A DNA stretch of 35,896 nucleotides from a virus. The translations under genes and the position numbers were made by a program. The DNA is taken from positions 1 through 35,896 of IMG/VR virus record IMGVR_UViG_3300047550_001363; one strand, given 5' to 3'. The notes below the pieces were generated by a model, which worked only from the letters and a program-made list of their open reading frames with translations, ran no database searches and had not been told where the DNA came from. Below, piece by piece: positions 4,587-20,326 of the stretch (position 1 is the stretch's first letter; every line of letters begins with the position of its first letter).

Positions 4587-4781
4587 ATGGAGCAGTTCAT
4601 GTTTATAGTGAAAGTAGAACACATATCAGAAGGAAAACTGATACAAAGAGAACTGCCATGTGTACCATCAAGAGGAGATTGGATTGAAATAGGCCAAGAA
4701 AATTTTGTAGTTAAAAATGTTTCTTGGAACTTATCTGATAGAAGAACAGTAACTTTACTAGTTGACAGACCAAAGTTTTAA
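4587..4781 (+). CDS. Small beta-rich protein upstream of TerL (64 aa)
   Basis: Starts at ATG 4587, five bases after the upstream stop; an in-frame ATG at 4569 would add six residues and overlap the upstream gene. The body reads as an all-beta domain: FIVKVEHISEGKLIQ, CVPSRGDWIEI, FVVKNVSWNL, TVTLLV. Alternating strands with a Gly-Asp turn resemble small SH3-like or barrel proteins. Unknown function. The stop is one base from the TerL ATG, so it is probably co-translated with TerL. Confidence 0.6.
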   Translation: MEQFMFIVKVEHISEGKLIQRELPCVPSRGDWIEIGQENFVVKNVSWNLSDRRTVTLLVDRPKF

Positions 4782-4782
4782 A

Positions 4783-6987
4783 ATGTTTAGAGATATACCA
4801 ACATATGATTATGAACTTGAACAGTGGGGATACACTGCATTTGAGACTAAAGATGACTTTATTGAGTTTCTTGAAAGTATATTCAAACAACCAGGAAAGT
4901 ATAACTTTGATGAGTGTTCATTTATGTTCAATGCAGAAGCTAGAAAGTTCAATAAGAACAGAGTATACTGTTTAGCACCTGAGCGTTCCAAAGACTTTAT
5001 ATACTATTGGGATACAGAAAAAGAAAAATGTAGAAAAGGAGTTATATTTAAGAACAAAGGTAAAACGTGGTACTTGCCACGCGATTACTATATGTGGTTA
5101 AACTTCTTACCAATCTATAACAAAGAAGTAAACAGATTTACATTTGCTGACGTACGTGATGCTCAGTATCACATGGCTCTTTATGAAGAGTTAGCACAGT
5201 TAAAAAATAAACATGCAGCAATTTTAAAGAAACGTCAGATAGCATCTTCTTATTACCATTCTGGTAAAATCATTAACTTGTTTTATTTTGAGGAAGGTTC
5301 TGTATCTAAGATGGCTGGATCACTTAAAGATTATATTAATGAGAAAGGCACATGGCGTTTTCTTGAAGAGTATCGCAACTTCTTAAATAAACACACTGCA
5401 TGGTATCGTCCTTGTAATCCAGATAAAGTATTAAACTGGGAACAAAAAGCTGAGGTTACGCAAGGAGGTAGAAAAGTAGATATTGGACTTAAGTCAGTTA
5501 TATTTGGATTGGTACTTGAAAAAGACCCAACAAATGGTGTAGGGGGACCATGTACTTTATTCTTTCATGAGGAGGCAGGAATTGCTCCCAAAATGAGTAC
5601 AACACTTGAGTATTTATTACCTGCAATGAAATCAGGTATGATGTATACAGGTATGTTTGTGGTTGCAGGATCTGTGGGTGATTTGGATCAATGTGAACCA
5701 TTGAAAGAATTAATCTTAAATCCAGACTCAAAAGATATATTTGCTGTTGAAACAGATTTATTAGATGAGAATGGTACAAAAGGATTATGTGGTTTGTTTA
5801 TACCAGAGCAATGGTCAATGCTTCCATGTATAGATGATTATGGTAATTCTCAAGTGGAAAAAGCTCTTGAGATGATTATGTTAGAACGTGAAGACTGGAA
5901 AAAGAAACTTAAACCAGAAGATTACAGATTACGTATTTCTCAGAAACCTATTAACATTAAAGAAGCTTTTGATTATAGAAAAGACGCAAGATTTCCTGAG
6001 CATTTAGTATCACAACAAATTAGACGCATAGAGGATAAAGAATATCCAATGGAATTTGTAGACTTGATGTGGGAAGATGATAAAATTGTACAAAAGTTTA
6101 CACGCAAGTTACCAATCATGGAGTTTCCAATATCACCTAAAACAGAAAATAAAGAAGGTGCTATTATCATCTATGAGAAACCAATTGAAAATCCAAAGTT
6201 TGGAACTTATTATGCGTCTATTGACCCTGTATCAGAAGGTAAGACAACAACATCAGAATCTCTTTGTTCTATCTTTGTTTATAAAACTGCACAAGAAGTA
6301 ACAGTTCATAAGAAAGATGGATCAGTTGATTCTTATATTGAGGGTGATAAAATTGTTGCTGCATGGTGTGGACGATTTGATGACTTAAAAAAGACGCATG
6401 AAAGACTAGAGTTAATTATTGAGTATTACAATGCATGGACAATTGTAGAGAACAACGTACACTTGTTTATACAGTACATGATATCAAGACGTAAGCAAAA
6501 GTATCTTGTGCCAAAAAATCAAATCATGTTCTTAAAAGAACTAGGTAGTAATAATAACGTCTTCCAGGAGTATGGTTGGCGTAACACAGGTACACTTTTT
6601 AAATCAAACTTGGTATCATACGCAATACAGTTTTTAGAAGAAGAGATAGATGTTGAGACCAAACCAGATGGCACTATTACCAAAGTCACATATGGTGTAG
6701 AACGCATACCTGATTTAATGCTATTAAAAGAAATGCAAGCATACAGAGATGGATTAAACGTTGACCGCTTGGTTGCGTTTTGTGCATTAGTTGCTTTTGC
6801 AAAAGTTCAAGAGTCAAACAGAGGTTTTTCTAAACGTACTGATCACGAAAATCCTGATAGTTTGCAAAATACAAATAAAAATACTAACTTATTTATGAGT
6901 CCTTTTCGTCATATTGGTAATAGTGAGCAAAGCTCAGCTAGCAGTCTTATGCGAAAACCAAGGAACCCATTTAAAAACATGAGATAA
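4783..6987 (+). CDS. terL: Terminase large subunit (packaging ATPase and nuclease)
   Basis: A 734-residue protein from ATG 4783; a TTG at 4762 would add seven residues within the upstream gene. The ATPase half shows the Walker A position KKRQIASSYYHSGK (149-162) and Walker B CTLFFHEEAG (257-266) with E263/E264. The nuclease half shows three acids: D481 in YASIDPVSEG, E556 in IVENNV and D661 in NVDRLVAF. TerL pumps DNA into the prohead through the portal and cuts the concatemer. The Walker A lacks the usual glycine after RQ, which may be a lineage trait. The 734-residue length fits crAss-like TerL, longer than most. Confidence 0.9.
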   Translation: MFRDIPTYDYELEQWGYTAFETKDDFIEFLESIFKQPGKYNFDECSFMFNAEARKFNKNRVYCLAPERSKDFIYYWDTEKEKCRKGVIFKNKGKTWYLPRDYYMWLNFLPIYNKEVNRFTFADVRDAQYHMALYEELAQLKNKHAAILKKRQIASSYYHSGKIINLFYFEEGSVSKMAGSLKDYINEKGTWRFLEEYRNFLNKHTAWYRPCNPDKVLNWEQKAEVTQGGRKVDIGLKSVIFGLVLEKDPTNGVGGPCTLFFHEEAGIAPKMSTTLEYLLPAMKSGMMYTGMFVVAGSVGDLDQCEPLKELILNPDSKDIFAVETDLLDENGTKGLCGLFIPEQWSMLPCIDDYGNSQVEKALEMIMLEREDWKKKLKPEDYRLRISQKPINIKEAFDYRKDARFPEHLVSQQIRRIEDKEYPMEFVDLMWEDDKIVQKFTRKLPIMEFPISPKTENKEGAIIIYEKPIENPKFGTYYASIDPVSEGKTTTSESLCSIFVYKTAQEVTVHKKDGSVDSYIEGDKIVAAWCGRFDDLKKTHERLELIIEYYNAWTIVENNVHLFIQYMISRRKQKYLVPKNQIMFLKELGSNNNVFQEYGWRNTGTLFKSNLVSYAIQFLEEEIDVETKPDGTITKVTYGVERIPDLMLLKEMQAYRDGLNVDRLVAFCALVAFAKVQESNRGFSKRTDHENPDSLQNTNKNTNLFMSPFRHIGNSEQSSASSLMRKPRNPFKNMR

Positions 6988-6988
6988 T

Positions 6989-9718
6989 ATGCAAGTATTC
7001 AATGCACTGCAGCTAAAGAATGGCGCAAAAGCTGATTATAACAAGATGGGTACATTTACCCAACCTGTGCAATTCTTACAATCAAAAGATAAAGATGAAG
7101 CATGGGCTGCTTGGAATATGGATTGGTATGAAATGCAAGGTCTTAAACAGATACGCAGAAATGCAAGACGCCTTCTTAAAAACTACAAATTAGCAACTGG
7201 TATTATTGATAAGACAGACTACATTGTAGAGGAAGATAATGATATGGCAGAACTTGTTGATATTCTGACTAAAGAAGATACTTCAGCTTTTGAGTTAAAA
7301 TTCTTTCCAATTATTCCAAATGTTGTAAATGTCATGGTTGGAGAATTTGCAAAACGCAATGACAAAATCATGTACAGATCAGTTGATGATACTTCATACA
7401 ATGAAATGCTTGAGCAAAAACGCCAGATGGTAGAGCAAACATTGTTATCAAGTGCTGAAATAAAAATGAAAATGAAAGTTGAGGCAATGGGCGCAGATCC
7501 TAATAATCAAGAGCAGCAACAACAGATTCAACAAATGATGTCACCTGAGTCATTAAAGACTTTGCCAGAAATTGAAGAGTTCTTTAAAAAGAATTATAAA
7601 TCAATGATAGAAGAATGGGCATCACATCAACATAATGTTGATACTGAACGTTTTAACATGAAAGAACTTGAAACTCTTGCATTTAGAGACAGTCTTATTG
7701 CTGATAGAGAGTTTTGGCATTTTAATATGCTTGAAGATGATTATGAAGTTGAAGTATGGAACCCTGTAATAACATTCTACCACAAGTCTCCAGGAGCTAG
7801 ATATATTTCACAATCCAATTGGGCTGGTAAAATTGACTTAATGACACCTGCAGATGTACTTGATAAGTATGGTTACATGATGACAGGTGAACAGTTAAAA
7901 AGTCTTGAAGCAATATATCCTGTAAAATCAGCAGGTTATATTCTACCAGGTGTACAGAATGATGGCTCTTTTTATGATGCAACACGTTCACATGAGTGGA
8001 ATGTTGATGGACCTTCATTAGGAATGCGTCAGTTTACGTCATATCGTGATACAACAAATGCATATGGTGATGATATCATTCTTAAGATTCTTACTGAATC
8101 AGAAGACTTACTAGATTTTGATAATACTGGTCTTCTTCGTGTAACAACATGTTATTGGAAGTCTCAGAGAATGGTTGGACATTTAACACGTATTGATGAG
8201 CAAGGTATGCTTATAGACATGATTGTTGATGAAAACTATAAGGTCACAGAAAAACCAATATATGATACAACTGTAATTAAAAAGAAATCTAGAGACACTT
8301 TGATTATGGGTGAGCATATTGATTGGATATGGATTAATCAAACATGGGGTGGCGTTAAGATTGGACCAAATAGACCAACATTTTATGGTAATACAGACAA
8401 TCTTAATTTTTCCCCTCTGTACTTAAATGTAGCACCCATTAAATTCCAATTTAAAGGTGATTTTACAATGTATGGATGTAAACTACCAGTAGAAGGTGCT
8501 GTGTTTTCAGATAGAAACACTAAGTCACGTTCTCTTGTAGATAAGATGAAGCCTTACCAGATTGGATATAATCTTGTAAATAATCAAATTGCAGACATTC
8601 TTATTGATGAATTAGGTACTGTAATCTTGTTAGATCAAAATGCATTACCACGTCATTCAGCTGGTGAAGATTGGGGACATGGTAATTTTGGAAAAGCATA
8701 TGTTGCAATGAAGAACTTTGGTATTTTACCATTGGATACTTCCATTACAAATACAGAAAATGCACTTAACTTTCAGCATTATCAAGTATTAAATCTTGAG
8801 CAGACAAATAGATTAATGTCTAGAATCCAATTAGCAAATCATTTTAAACAACAATGCTTTGAAACAATTGGCATATCACCTCAGCGTATGGGCGCTGTAA
8901 ATGCTCAAGAAACAGCTCAAGGTATTGAGCAAGCTATTAATCAGAGTTATTCTCAAACAGAGATGTATTTTGTACAACACTCAGAATATCTCATGCCACG
9001 TGTGCATCAAATGCGTACTGACTTGGCACAATACTATCATTCAAATAAACCAAGTTTAAGGTTGCAATATATGACAACTTTAGACGAGAAGGTAAATTTT
9101 GAAATGAATGGTACAGAGTTATTAGCTAGAGAGTTAAACATATTCATTTCTACTAAAGTTAATCAGCGTCAAATTATGGAGCAGATTCGTCAATTGGCTC
9201 TCAACAATAACACATCAGGTGCTTCTATTTATGACTTAGGTAACTTAATCAAAGCTGATTCACTTGCAGAAATTACTCACACTCTTAAAGCGGTTGAAGA
9301 AAAAGTACAAGCTCAGCAACAACAACAAGCTCAATCACAACAAGAGTCTGAGAAAATGCGTCAAGAAGGTGAAAACAAACGTCAAGAGGCAGAACTTAAA
9401 TACAAAGCAGAGCAAGCACAACTTGACAGACAAACTGATATTCAAATTGCTGAAATACGTGCAGCTGGTTATACAGGTATGAAGGATCAAAATTTAAATC
9501 AGCAAACTGATTATATAGATACACTAGAATACCTTGATAAGCGAAGAGCTAAAGAACGCGATCAGCAAATGTCAGAATCTCGTGAAACCAATAGAATGAT
9601 TGAAAATCAAACTAAGAATGATTTGCAACGTCAAGAAATGCAAACACGTGAGAATATTGCAGATAAACAATTGCAAATTGCAATGGTTAACAAAAATAAA
9701 TATGACAAGAAAAAATAG
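6989..9718 (+). CDS. Portal protein with long Gln-rich helical C-terminus
   Basis: A 909-residue protein one base after TerL. Residues 1-760 carry the portal core, including REFWHFNMLEDDYEVEVWNP and the segment FYHKSPGARYISQSNWAG (about 249-275), which I recognise as typical of crAss-like portals. It forms the dodecameric DNA channel at one capsid vertex and docks TerL. From about residue 768 to the end it is a highly charged Gln/Glu/Lys/Arg helix (VQAQQQQQAQSQQ, then many KRQEAE-like repeats), a likely coiled-coil barrel or tail inside the head. The stop is TAG. Very long for a portal but normal for this group. Confidence 0.85.
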   Translation: MQVFNALQLKNGAKADYNKMGTFTQPVQFLQSKDKDEAWAAWNMDWYEMQGLKQIRRNARRLLKNYKLATGIIDKTDYIVEEDNDMAELVDILTKEDTSAFELKFFPIIPNVVNVMVGEFAKRNDKIMYRSVDDTSYNEMLEQKRQMVEQTLLSSAEIKMKMKVEAMGADPNNQEQQQQIQQMMSPESLKTLPEIEEFFKKNYKSMIEEWASHQHNVDTERFNMKELETLAFRDSLIADREFWHFNMLEDDYEVEVWNPVITFYHKSPGARYISQSNWAGKIDLMTPADVLDKYGYMMTGEQLKSLEAIYPVKSAGYILPGVQNDGSFYDATRSHEWNVDGPSLGMRQFTSYRDTTNAYGDDIILKILTESEDLLDFDNTGLLRVTTCYWKSQRMVGHLTRIDEQGMLIDMIVDENYKVTEKPIYDTTVIKKKSRDTLIMGEHIDWIWINQTWGGVKIGPNRPTFYGNTDNLNFSPLYLNVAPIKFQFKGDFTMYGCKLPVEGAVFSDRNTKSRSLVDKMKPYQIGYNLVNNQIADILIDELGTVILLDQNALPRHSAGEDWGHGNFGKAYVAMKNFGILPLDTSITNTENALNFQHYQVLNLEQTNRLMSRIQLANHFKQQCFETIGISPQRMGAVNAQETAQGIEQAINQSYSQTEMYFVQHSEYLMPRVHQMRTDLAQYYHSNKPSLRLQYMTTLDEKVNFEMNGTELLARELNIFISTKVNQRQIMEQIRQLALNNNTSGASIYDLGNLIKADSLAEITHTLKAVEEKVQAQQQQQAQSQQESEKMRQEGENKRQEAELKYKAEQAQLDRQTDIQIAEIRAAGYTGMKDQNLNQQTDYIDTLEYLDKRRAKERDQQMSESRETNRMIENQTKNDLQRQEMQTRENIADKQLQIAMVNKNKYDKKK

Positions 9719-11100: not shown

Positions 11101-12729
11101 ATGGCAACACCAGTTTTAAACAATGGTCTGTTTTTGCGAGATACAAACTACAAAGTTTCTTCTCACATTGACTCATACCACCTAGTAAACATGCTGAAGT
11201 CTGCTGAACCTATGGATTTGGGTCCAGTTGATCTTTGGGCAATGTCTCAAAAAGTAGAAATGCCTCTTTACCAAATGTCTTCGTTTGGAGGTAAAAACAC
11301 AATCATGGTAGATACACCACGTGGCGAGTACAAGTGGCAAACTCCAATTGTGCAAGATTTACCTTACATCACTGAAGATATTGAACCAGCTGCTGCTGTT
11401 CTTGGTTTGGATGGTACTACATTCAAAATCAAATTGAACAAACGAGTATTTGGTCATGGTGATATCATCACTTATGATAAATACAAAGGTTTGGAGATGT
11501 ACATTACTGCTGATGATATTCTTCCTTCTGCTGATGGATATATCTACACTGTTCAACTTGTAAACAATAACAACTCTGCATCGTTAGATCATAAATACTT
11601 GAAGCCAGGAACTAAATTCTTTAGAAAAGGTTCTGCACGTGGTGAGTATGGTGAGCGTTTTTCTGACATTGGAGAATTGTCAAATGGTTTCCGTGAGTAC
11701 TACAACTTTGTTGGTGGTGCTGAAGCTCACGTTCACTATTCAGTTTCTTCTCGCGCAGAGATGATGATGAAAGGTGGTTTGAATGCAGATGGTTCTGTTC
11801 CTGTAACTGAAATCTGGCGTTCATTTGATAAAAACTTGGATCCTTCAATTGCAAACATTGACCAAATGTTGGCAGTTATGGGTAAAGAATATATCAAAAA
11901 AGCATATGATAATGGTTCATTGACTCGTTCATTCTTGACTAAAATGGAAGCTGCACACTTAACTAAGATTGCAACTGACATTGAGACTTACTTAATGTGG
12001 GGACAAGGAGGACGCATCAAACAAGATGGTCCAGATGATATGCGTTTATCAGTAGGACTTTGGTCTCAGTTGGATAACTCTTACAAGCGTATCTATAACA
12101 AATCAGGATTTACTCTTGACTTGTTCCGCTCTGAGATTTTCAACTTCTTCAATGGTAAAGTTGAATTTAAAGGACCAGATCCACAACGTAACTTGATTGT
12201 ACAAACTGGTATGGCAGGTATGAAAATGATTAACCAAGCTATCAAAAAAGAAGCATTTGGTACTGGTCTTACTGTCAACATGGATCAATCAGGTGTTGGT
12301 GCAATTTCAGGTAACAATGCAATGGACTTGAACTTTGGATTTGCATTTACAAGTTACACAATTCCATTCTTGGCAAATGTGAAATTTGTTCTTAACCCTG
12401 CATTTGACAATGTACATACTAACGATATTGAAAACCCAATCATTGATGGTTTCCCATTATCTTCTTACAACTTTATCATTTTTGATATCACTGACAATAC
12501 AAATGACAACATCTTCTTGTTGAAATTGAAATGGGATAGTGAATTGAAATGGTTCTACCAAAATGGTACTATGGACTACATGGGACGTTCACAAGGATTC
12601 CAGTCTTCTGGAAACTTTAATGGATATCGCGTGATGATGTCTCAAACAATGCCATCAATTTGGGTTAAAGATCCAACTAAAGTGTTGAAGATTGTTATGA
12701 GAAATCCAGTGACTGGAGGATCATTCTAA
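11101..12729 (+). CDS. Major capsid protein
   Basis: A 542-residue protein with Bacteroidota-phage major capsid features: a short N-terminal arm, a central long alpha/beta region and a C-terminal beta portion (FAFTSYTIPFLANVKFVLNP, GFQSSGNFNGYRVMMSQ, KIVMRNPVTGGSF). Its position after the scaffold candidate and its regular, highly expressed-looking codon use fit. HK97 fold is expected for Caudoviricetes capsid proteins but cannot be shown here. The leader is 39 bases of almost pure A/T, as is usual for strong translation in these hosts. No cleavage site was identified. Confidence 0.75.
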   Translation: MATPVLNNGLFLRDTNYKVSSHIDSYHLVNMLKSAEPMDLGPVDLWAMSQKVEMPLYQMSSFGGKNTIMVDTPRGEYKWQTPIVQDLPYITEDIEPAAAVLGLDGTTFKIKLNKRVFGHGDIITYDKYKGLEMYITADDILPSADGYIYTVQLVNNNNSASLDHKYLKPGTKFFRKGSARGEYGERFSDIGELSNGFREYYNFVGGAEAHVHYSVSSRAEMMMKGGLNADGSVPVTEIWRSFDKNLDPSIANIDQMLAVMGKEYIKKAYDNGSLTRSFLTKMEAAHLTKIATDIETYLMWGQGGRIKQDGPDDMRLSVGLWSQLDNSYKRIYNKSGFTLDLFRSEIFNFFNGKVEFKGPDPQRNLIVQTGMAGMKMINQAIKKEAFGTGLTVNMDQSGVGAISGNNAMDLNFGFAFTSYTIPFLANVKFVLNPAFDNVHTNDIENPIIDGFPLSSYNFIIFDITDNTNDNIFLLKLKWDSELKWFYQNGTMDYMGRSQGFQSSGNFNGYRVMMSQTMPSIWVKDPTKVLKIVMRNPVTGGSF

Positions 12730-12753
12730 TTGTAATTTTTAATATAATATACA

Positions 12754-12963
12754 ATGGCAAAGCAATTAAAACGTATGAACGCTGGCGGTAGTAGTACAGG
12801 CTTTAATGCAAAGACTGGTAGTAAAATGACACCACGAATTGGTAGTGGTGTAGATAATTCAACTACTAATACTACACAAGATCAGATGCGTAGTTTCAAA
12901 AAAGGTGGTACAGCTAAAGCTAGTATGACTAAAAGTGTAACTACTCTTAAAAGACGTAAATAA
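12754..12963 (+). CDS. Small basic Ser/Thr/Gly/Lys-rich protein (69 aa)
   Basis: A 69-residue protein with many Lys and Arg and almost no acidic residues. It is low in hydrophobics and probably disordered (NAGGSSTGFNAKTGSK, SVTTLKRRK). Such a composition suits DNA binding inside the capsid or filling gaps on a lattice. It lies 24 bases after the capsid gene and directly before the structured island at 12964. No family is recognised. Confidence 0.6.
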   Translation: MAKQLKRMNAGGSSTGFNAKTGSKMTPRIGSGVDNSTTNTTQDQMRSFKKGGTAKASMTKSVTTLKRRK

Positions 12964-13102
12964 GACGCTCCACCTCCTCAGTATCAGATGTGAATCTGAT
13001 GGAAGCAAACGCCAAGAAGGTACTCTCCTGCCTTCTTGGTTCTCCTGAGAGCAACACCTTGGCGTGGTTCAGGAGCTTAGGCAGAAATGCTGACTAACGT
13101 TG
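12964..13102 (+). ncRNA. Compact GC-rich structured RNA candidate
   Basis: This gap is about 51% G+C by hand count, in an otherwise AT-rich operon. Helices seen directly: 12983-12989/12994-13000 (7 bp capped by a GTGA, i.e. GNRA, tetraloop); 13012-13020/13031-13039 (CCAAGAAGG/CCTTCTTGG, perfect 9 bp); 13042-13048/13069-13075 (CTCCTGA/TCAGGAG); 13077-13084/13090-13097 (one G-A mismatch). CTCTC at 13023-13027 can pair with GAGAG at 13047-13051 as a pseudoknot. CGCCAAG 13010-13016 can instead pair with CTTGGCG 13058-13064, mutually exclusive with the 9-bp stem. It matches no ribozyme core, tRNA or riboswitch I know. It could be a leader regulating the gene at 13144, a processed small RNA or a packaging RNA. 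A 32-codon ORF (12999-13097) overlaps it. Confidence 0.55.
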
Positions 13103-13143
13103 CAAAAAAGAAGAAAGAAAAACCTATTTAAAACAAAGTAAAA

Positions 13144-14160
13144 ATGGAAAACGTCACAGTAGTTGAAAAAGACAGGGTACAGAAGCGAACAAGCACTGTA
13201 TCAATTAAGCCTTACATTAATAGTTCAATTTCAAATATGGGATTGGAGAAATATGAAATGGCAGTATTTGAAGGAGTAGTACATGAAGAAGTTATCGCAT
13301 GTCTTGAGTACAATGGTATTAAAAGATATGTAACAGGTCTTAATGAATTTGCTCCAGAAATTAAAAGTTTACCTGAAGAGCAACGTGAGGCTGCAATCAA
13401 AGATATCAGAACAACAGTTGCTCAATTAGAAAAAGAATTGGCATCTAACGTAATTGATCCAAAAGATGAAGAATTTTGGAATAAGGTAAAATTACTTAGA
13501 CCAGACAATGATGAGTTTTGGGAAAAGATTGTTTTGAGAATGGGCAATGATCCTGTGTTTCTTGATCCTACAATTGATCCATATGACCTAATTAAATTGC
13601 GTGCTATTGAAGCTGGTGGCTTTTCGCTTATTGCAAAGTCTTTAGAACAAGCAAGACACAGTGCAAACCATAAGTTTTACTTAGACAGATATGAAGAGAC
13701 AGTATCTATCAAAACTGAAGTTAAGAAATTGCGTAATAAAGCTCTTGCTGAACTTCAAAAACTTTATGACAAAAATGCTAACAAGTTATTCTTGGTTTGC
13801 AAAGTGATTGATGCTAACTCTACACAATACAGAAAATCTACACCAAATGATGTTCTTTATGACAATATGGATAAATATATTAATGGTGAGTCTGTAGATA
13901 AAGACAAAAAGAAAACAGCATCTAAGTTCTTGGAAACAAGTGTATTAGATATGGAAACATTGAAATTAAGAGCTATTGTTAAAGATGCTAATTTCTATAA
14001 AGTAATTGCAACTCGTGGTGATGGTAACATTTATCACATGAAGAGTGGAGCAATGCTTGGAAAAACTCCATCTGAGATTGTTGAGTATTTGAAAAATCCA
14101 CTCAATGAGGAAATTCTTATGGATGTAATACGTAATGTTGAACAACACTGGAATAACTAA
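13144..14160 (+). CDS. Conserved virion-region protein (338 aa), function unknown
   Basis: A 338-residue soluble protein after the structured island and a purine-rich leader. It is largely helical, with charged segments such as LPEEQREAAIKDIRTTVAQL (about 78-97), a middle domain around DEFWEKIVLRMG, and a basic section with KVIDANSTQYRKST and a C-terminal helix (ILMDVIRNVEQHW). No motifs or signal peptide are visible. The neighbours are capsid and adaptor genes, so an auxiliary capsid or head-completion role is likely but not shown. It overlaps the next ATG by one base. Confidence 0.6.
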   Translation: MENVTVVEKDRVQKRTSTVSIKPYINSSISNMGLEKYEMAVFEGVVHEEVIACLEYNGIKRYVTGLNEFAPEIKSLPEEQREAAIKDIRTTVAQLEKELASNVIDPKDEEFWNKVKLLRPDNDEFWEKIVLRMGNDPVFLDPTIDPYDLIKLRAIEAGGFSLIAKSLEQARHSANHKFYLDRYEETVSIKTEVKKLRNKALAELQKLYDKNANKLFLVCKVIDANSTQYRKSTPNDVLYDNMDKYINGESVDKDKKKTASKFLETSVLDMETLKLRAIVKDANFYKVIATRGDGNIYHMKSGAMLGKTPSEIVEYLKNPLNEEILMDVIRNVEQHWNN

Positions 14161-19624: not shown

Positions 19625-20326
19625 ATGAGAACAAAAGATGGATGTATAAAAACTTCTTCAAACTGTGTAATCTGGGAAGGTCCAGATATTCCATGTCTAA
19701 AACTTTGCAAAGGTGATACAATTACCGATGTACTATATAAACTTGCAACTCAATTTTGTGATACACTTGTATTATTAGATCCTACAAAGTATGATATTTC
19801 ATGTTTTAACGACATAAGTTGTCCACCAACAGATTTCTCAGAACTGTTTCAACTTGTTATTGATCAGATATGTAATATACAATTAATACCTGGACCTCAA
19901 GGACTACCAGGTTTAGATGGTTCAGCAGGCGCTGATGGCAACTACATTGAAGTTATAACATTATTAGCAGGAGATGTTCATTGTCCATGTTCTGGTTTAC
20001 AAATTAACTATATCAATGGCACATCTCATAGTTTAATTAGCACATCATATATATGTACAGGTTGCAATGGTGCTAATGGTGCAACTGGTGCAACTGGAAG
20101 TTCTGGTCCTATAGGTCCTGCTGGACCACAAGGTTTACCAGGTAATTCAGGAACTGATGGAAAATCAGGAAGAGGCGTGGCTGTATTTGTTCAAACAACA
20201 GAACCAACACAATCTGATTTTGATAGTATATATGGGTCTATTGAAGGATATGGTATAAATTATATTGGAACTAACAATACAATAAGACCAGGTGATGTTT
20301 GGATAGAACCTTGCACATTGATATAA
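19625..20326 (+). CDS. Adhesin with shared anchor domain and collagen-like repeats
   Basis: A 233-residue protein. The N-terminus (CVIWEGPDIPCLKLCKGDTI) matches the preceding gene almost residue for residue, followed by the same 'Cys-Pro-Pro, helix, Ile-Cys' layout. Residues 94-108 and 148-183 are Gly-X-Y collagen-like repeats (GPQGLPGLDGSAGADG and a longer run), interrupted by a short CPCSG segment. Collagen-like segments trimerise and act as stiff stalks in phage fibres. The C-terminal 50 residues (TEPTQSDFDSIYGSIEGYG) form a small cap. It overlaps the next ATG by one base. Confidence 0.65.
   Translation: MRTKDGCIKTSSNCVIWEGPDIPCLKLCKGDTITDVLYKLATQFCDTLVLLDPTKYDISCFNDISCPPTDFSELFQLVIDQICNIQLIPGPQGLPGLDGSAGADGNYIEVITLLAGDVHCPCSGLQINYINGTSHSLISTSYICTGCNGANGATGATGSSGPIGPAGPQGLPGNSGTDGKSGRGVAVFVQTTEPTQSDFDSIYGSIEGYGINYIGTNNTIRPGDVWIEPCTLI

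Follow-up and report, generated by a model that had tools for sequence, protein, structure and literature searches.

In HDV-like ribozymes, the cut is made at the nucleotide with which P1 begins (PMC4908430). A U and a G in loop L3, together forming a trans U-G pair, are a signature of the HDV family (PMC3386971), and invariant positions in L3 and J4/2 similarly are a signature of HDV-like ribozymes (PMC10879173). In phages, theta ribozymes are found in Caudoviricetes, mostly with Bacteroidota hosts; they start with G1, are defined via their adjacency to tRNA 3' ends, and cut directly after the tRNA (PMC10879173). Hundreds of non-tRNA HDV-like phage ribozymes have been published as well, with ‘unknown biological functions’ (PMC10879173). 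The HDV-like ribozymes of R2 and L1Tc retrotransposons form the 5' end of an RNA that is released from a longer co-transcript, and some of these lack P4 (PMC3774820, PMC8256844).

The RNA considered here is probably an HDV-like (delta) ribozyme, found in the sense direction after a phage capsid gene (13042-13103) and predicted from its sequence to be self-cleaving. The HDV-like fold itself is, on comparison of sequences, nearly certain, and that the RNA would cleave itself is very likely. Positions are those of the window, i.e., the whole 35,896-nucleotide stretch that was analysed (IMG/VR virus record IMGVR_UViG_3300047550_001363), and the capsid-region genes and RNA elements described are all on the + strand.

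From its gene content, this 35.9-kb record comes from a crAss-like phage. Genes for terminase large subunit (phrog_6681), portal (phrog_6547), and an unassigned 408-aa protein are followed by that for the major capsid protein (11101-12729; phrog_11589, major head protein, E 2.5e-34), by a gene for a basic, small 69-aa protein (12754-12963), which is missing from most relatives, and then by the gap which is our subject. Next come a 338-aa gene (13144-14160) and a gene for a ring-type virion protein. Matching gene order is seen in the annotated crAss-like phages csAssE-Sib, Cellulophaga phi4:1, and cr106_1, with the 338-aa gene thereby a structural-cluster gene, between those for capsid and ring-type proteins. 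Searches against PHROG returned no match for either the 69-aa or the 338-aa protein. Phage records, too, gave no tblastn match for the 338-aa protein, and with the gap as BLASTN query gave chance matches alone. No intrinsic terminator, that is, a G+C-rich stem followed by a U-run, was found on the + strand over 12600-13250, and no sigma-70-type promoter was found on that strand near the ribozyme. Elsewhere in the window, among tail/fibre genes, 19625-20326 encodes a protein of 233 aa in which Gly-X-Y repeats resembling those of collagen occur (GPQGLPGLDG..., GPIGPAGPQGLPG).

What lies between these capsid-operon genes is a compact structured RNA, conserved and pseudoknotted. A first-pass annotation had placed such an RNA in the gap between the 69-aa and 338-aa open reading frames, and had described it as G+C-rich and as folded. 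The location is as claimed; G+C is 51.1% in the gap versus 33.1% in the window, with just 0.3% of 139-nt stretches equally rich; and the gap as a whole folds better than do its own shuffles (z -2.2). That folding signal resides within the 5' half (12964-13041, z -4.7), with the 3' half, 13042-13110, displaying no such signal (z +0.2) because it is pseudoknotted. Also recovered were a hairpin with a GTGA loop (12983-13000), a perfect 9-bp stem, which is found inside of a 12-bp hairpin (13011-13040), and a proposed five-base pairing of a loop with downstream sequence. The latter is GCAAC (13051-13055) with GUUGC (13099-13103), which shows covariation among relatives and constitutes the ribozyme's P2, the 3' strand extending one base beyond where the element had been thought to end. 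Curated-model matches are absent, in keeping with the annotation's having seen neither riboswitch nor tRNA core. It had seen no known ribozyme core either, but in this it was mistaken, as P1, P2, P3, P1.1, and J4/2 correspond, element by element, to the HDV-like ribozyme layout. Packaging RNA and small RNA, which it had suggested as roles, are not the best reading of the gap.

The order of elements is P1-J1/2-P2-P3-L3-P3'-P1'-P1.1/L4-J4/2-P2', which is the HDV-like ribozyme layout, and the window can be read out in that manner as CUCCUGA, GA, GCAAC, ACC UUGGCGU GGU, UCAGGAG, C, UUAGGCAGAAAUGCUGA, CUAAC, and GUUGC. P1 is of 7 bp, pairing CUCCUGA (13042-13048) with UCAGGAG (13069-13075). With P1 set by covariation, the predicted cleavage site, by analogy with HDV-like ribozymes, would be on the 5' side of P1, between U13041 and C13042. 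P2, the pseudoknot (13051-13103), encloses a 3-bp P3, which is ACC (13056-13058) with GGU (13066-13068), and P3 is closed by L3, UUGGCGU (13059-13065), within which U13060 and G13064 are the counterparts of the conserved HDV trans U-G pair. P1.1, by which the second pseudoknot is closed, is a single pair, G13061 of L3 with C13076 just after P1'. A P4 hairpin of 4 bp, GGCA-GAAA-UGCU (13080-13083 with 13088-13091), is missing from about half of relatives, which have a 6-9 nt linker there, as does drz-Mtgn-1; in relatives this region reads GCAGAAAUGC, GCGAAAGC, GGCAGCAAUGCC, or P4 is absent. J4/2 is CUAAC (13094-13098), with C13094 the catalytic-type cytosine. That cytosine is C in 37 of the 37 relatives examined, in the context CYRR, with CUAA, CCAA, CUAG, and CUGA as variants.

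The case for this structure is comparative. IMG/VR was searched with the 338-aa protein, giving 80 loci, and with the capsid protein, giving 80 more. Other than for a few loci with extra genes or a contig end, the gap between the capsid and 338-aa genes in L001-L059 holds a recognisable 3' block. This begins with a 7-nt strand, a GCAAC-like strand, and [A/G]CC-NUGNYGU-GG[U/C], and continues with the complementary 7-nt strand, C, a linker, CYRR, and a GUUGC-like strand. Scanning of the collection for the motif gave 107 matches, about half with the complete structure, and there are about 38 distinct ribozyme versions among relatives. One of the loci (L057, IMGVR_UViG_3300020044_010822) carries at its contig end the capsid-338-aa region a second time, inverted, and probably is an assembly chimera.

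Covariation was counted over 30 distinct sequences, with variable-length linkers removed. As the first MAFFT alignment (A1) misplaced P2' where P4 is missing, counts were made on a later alignment, A3. Standard pairs occupy 99.6% of pair cells, and the compensatory changes that the first-pass annotation had proposed looking for among relatives are present, with two-sided changes at 12 of 16 pairs (P1 5/7, P2 5/5, P3 1/3, P1.1 1/1). The P3 change is in its outer pair, A-U to G-C. P1.1 is G-C in 29 of the 30 and U-A in one type (L201/L202), a double change in which L3 becomes UUUAAGU and an A follows P1'. The covariation score is 0.548 versus 0.170 +/- 0.016 for shuffled alignments, with 0 of 500 shuffles reaching it, and only 23-49% of cells are paired should the structure be slid by 1-3 columns. 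Because the P2 register in A3 was picked for its pairing, P2 is favoured there, and a shuffle given equal freedom is the fairer control: Mean P2 helix length is 5.84 bp versus 4.66 when P2' strands are exchanged between sequences (at most 5.03 over 500 trials).

Used alone, a loose HDV descriptor makes about two chance matches per window-sized (36 kb) random sequence, and it is due to this lack of specificity that the ribozyme case rests on the comparative evidence. A covariance model built solely from members with a 9-nt J1/2, and with the window sequence left out, by contrast finds the window copy as the sole match in 35.9 kb (E 3.5e-9). Rfam searches at gathering score gave no match in the window or in 15 relatives, and at permissive thresholds (E up to 10) gave chance matches only, with no HDV-type family among them; the ribozyme motif, that is, is lacking from Rfam 15. 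Scanning bacterial genomes for the core motif gave at least 119 matches, with a complete ribozyme in none of the matches listed.

Of the 23 large crAss-like records searched (81-136 kb), 16 have the ribozyme, each as a single copy located after the capsid gene and before the structural genes that come next; the one exception to the single copy is a weak second match far from the capsid gene (G012:C1:74975-75023, 19.3 bits, E 0.004). In the window it is the 69-aa gene that intervenes between capsid gene and ribozyme, while in G002 the ribozyme directly follows the capsid gene despite several genes having been inserted before the 338-aa homologue. Even with extra genes inserted, the ribozyme is still found downstream of the capsid gene and upstream of the structural gene that follows. 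The cassette inserted between ribozyme and 338-aa homologue in that record (L402, G002:C1:44500-51500, reverse strand, 4662-7000) includes two genes with similar C-terminal ends. A complete C1-type ribozyme occurs also in a different, non-crAss-looking phage, on a 37.8-kb contig (L111, 4736-4800), just 3' of a gene matching phrog_421 (unknown function), and there, too, a hairpin ends one base before the cut.

Upstream of the ribozyme is a leader for which the plan is kept but the sequence is variable, consisting of a CUCCACCUCC-like strand, a hairpin, and then a second hairpin near the cut. The pyrimidine-rich CUCCACCUCC (12968-12977) recurs upstream of the ribozyme in most of the relatives that have one, and includes CACCUCC, which is the sequence of the anti-Shine-Dalgarno 3' end of 16S rRNA. 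It does not co-vary with P1 and therefore may act in trans or bind protein. The first hairpin, of 7 bp with a GUGA loop (12983-13000, from the fold of 12964-13041), has a counterpart of unrelated sequence in most relatives. The second, of 12 bp (13011-13040; z -5.45 alone), stops one base short of the predicted cut, and over all 38 of 38 distinct leaders the spacing from stem end to C1 is 0-3 nt, with a mode of 1.

Cleavage might have been lost or might never have been present, in which case the HDV-like fold would be a stable pseudoknot serving as a protein-binding site, as a control on translation of the 338-aa gene, or as a packaging/assembly RNA. Consistent with this are that the first pair of P1 is C1-G37 in 37 of the 37 examined, rather than the typical G1 and G-U wobble at the cleavage-site pair, and so is unusual for the HDV-like class; that the extra conserved leader elements (CUCCACCUCC and the two hairpins) suggest further binding functions; and that a location beside capsid genes would suit assembly. 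The C1-G37 pair, being beside the scissile bond, could indeed slow or abolish cleavage. Nevertheless, the J4/2 cytosine (37/37) and the U and G at L3 positions 2 and 6 (30/30) are invariant while helices vary, which catalysis fits better than does protein binding, and the leader hairpin always ends just ahead of the cut site. A fold that does not cut we therefore consider to be unlikely.

A self-cleaving ribozyme in this location would be expected to act as follows. RNA polymerase would read through the gap as it transcribes the late structural operon, with the RNA then adopting the nested double pseudoknot of P1, P2, P3, and P1.1, a fold that covariation supports. Going by homology, C13094, aided by Mg2+, would cut between U13041 and C13042. 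The capsid message would thereby be freed, the 12-bp hairpin one base from a 3' end that carries a 2',3'-cyclic phosphate, an arrangement that should protect the message from 3'-to-5' decay. The message downstream of the cut would begin with a 5'-OH and the folded ribozyme, followed by a 40-nt A-rich leader (13104-13143) that ends at the ATG at 13144. As both of the new ends are expected to slow decay, the two messages could have separate lifetimes, and the outcome would be an independent stability, hence dosage, of capsid protein versus downstream head-tail proteins. An effect of the ribozyme on mRNA stability is something that we purely infer, but separation of capsid mRNA from downstream late genes seems a reasonably probable role. 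Its fixed, single-copy place after the most highly needed structural gene, along with the abutting hairpin, in any case points to one concrete, testable function.

Alternatively, the ribozyme might serve mainly to yield a separate small RNA or a trimmed leader, and not a pair of messages that have different fates, in support of which the leader is compact and strongly folded. A second cleavage element 5' of the leader was not seen, however, and the upstream product would be the 3' end of the capsid mRNA, making this quite improbable. Less credible still is a riboswitch-like or attenuation switch. The first-pass annotation had proposed an alternative helix, CGCCAAG with CTTGGCG, and that complement does exist in the window (13010-13016 with 13058-13064), where its seven bases, in pairing, would break P3/L3. 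What did not survive is its role as a switch, with the complement limited to the closest relatives and 8 exact complementary bases found in only 2 of 38 versions; mean complementarity over the family is 4.21 versus 4.06 +/- 0.15 for shuffled leaders, and the switch helix was rejected. Conservation owing to a short protein, i.e., the 32-codon open reading frame that the annotation had set against its structured RNA, can be dismissed as scarcely believable, for although an open frame spans the region in the window and in some relatives, changes occur as paired substitutions and no coding frame is kept, linker lengths shifting all three frames (total length modulo 3 of 19/11/8; J1/2 of 7, 8, 9, or 10 nt).

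A sister clade without the ribozyme (the group of L060-L076 and L253-L272) often holds instead, in this same gap, a tRNA-like element. Its parts are an outer stem of 7 bp, a hairpin whose loop includes UGAUCA, and a hairpin of 5 bp and 7-nt loop that abuts the 3' strand of the outer stem, an abutment resembling that of a tRNA's acceptor and T arm. Two-sided changes are found at 8 of 12 predicted pairs over 12 sequences. The element's carriers are L060, L062, L063, L068, L076, L253, L255-L257, L259, L265, and L269-L271, where it is located after the capsid gene or before the 338-aa homologue. ARAGORN called no tRNA on these elements, its relaxed modes giving noise. On a capsid-protein tree, 31 ribozyme-bearing rows and ten tRNA-like rows are split by a fully supported branch, where outgroups are very distant and ‘tRNA-like’ is a label for a rough pattern. 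In this slot the element may serve as another kind of processing signal, which we offer as a lead only.

Other structures too are seen here. In L247, 57-130 nt after the capsid stop, an acceptor-like stem is joined by one short hairpin and by a T arm whose UUCGAAU loop looks canonical, the whole resembling a degenerate tRNA, and L245 has a related-looking GGACAGUCGGUGUC stretch. L067 has in the same slot (about 2880-2960) a CCGCAC/GUGCGG hairpin, the CCCCC loop of which is complementary to a downstream GGGGG, a possible pseudoknot.

It is tempting, though this we hold only tentatively, to view the ribozymes and tRNA-like elements jointly. The HDV-like subclass with C1-G37, a reversed P1.1, and an optional P4 may be a distinct one and a fixed mRNA-processing element of a crAss-like clade, cutting the late operon right behind the capsid gene and beside a protective hairpin. 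The tRNA-like RNA of the sister clade, which is unrelated, could be cut by host RNase P/Z, and capsid mRNA would then be separated in both clades, though by two different RNA-processing devices.

How, then, does the phage RNA compare with known ribozymes? It is best regarded as a conserved variant among HDV-like ribozymes, and its place in the capsid operon is fixed. The published, active, minimal ribozyme drz-Mtgn-1 can be read out as GGUAGC, AC, ACCUAU, GCG UUCCCGU CGC, GCUACU, G, AUUUAGA, CUAA, and AUAGGU. Shared by drz-Mtgn-1/theta and phage RNA are the nested double pseudoknot, a P1 of 6-7 bp, a P2 of about 6 bp, a 3-bp P3, a 7-nt L3 of UUNNCGU, a one-pair P1.1, and a J4/2 of CUAA. The differences between drz-Mtgn-1 and the window are coordinated: P1 starts with G-U versus C-G, and P1.1 is C-G versus G-C.

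As with theta ribozymes, the cleavage site is next to a stable structured RNA, but here it is a plain hairpin rather than a tRNA. That is, for the tRNA-associated theta trait of a tRNA 3' end within 5 nt of the cut, no tRNA was found in the window or in the relatives scanned. The phage RNA differs from theta ribozymes also in its invariant C1-G37, in its reversed P1.1 (G-C or U-A versus C-G), in its fixed place after the capsid gene, and in the presence of P4 in many members. The theta minimal form is without P4; the window has one of 4 bp, and about half of relatives have none. Theta-ribozyme phages are enriched in the RNA ligase PF09414; none of all 24 records has it, so re-ligation by a PF09414 ligase is not supported. 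Some of these phage sequences may be included among the non-tRNA matches of the published theta set.

With the HDV genomic and antigenomic ribozymes and that of CPEB3 the phage RNA has in common its topology, the L3 U/G pair, and the catalytic cytosine of J4/2. The L3 of the CPEB3 ribozyme is UUCACGU, which is close to the UUGACGU of the phage family. Sequence homology with HDV and CPEB3 nonetheless is not detectable, genomic roles differ, and so too does the first pair of P1, with HDV having beside the scissile bond a G1-U37 wobble versus the C1-G37 of the phage RNA. The C1 and reversed P1.1 in combination represent a natural variant for mechanistic study of HDV-type catalysis. Lastly, while R2 and L1Tc ribozymes sit at the end of a retroelement, that of the phage is found within the operon of a DNA phage.
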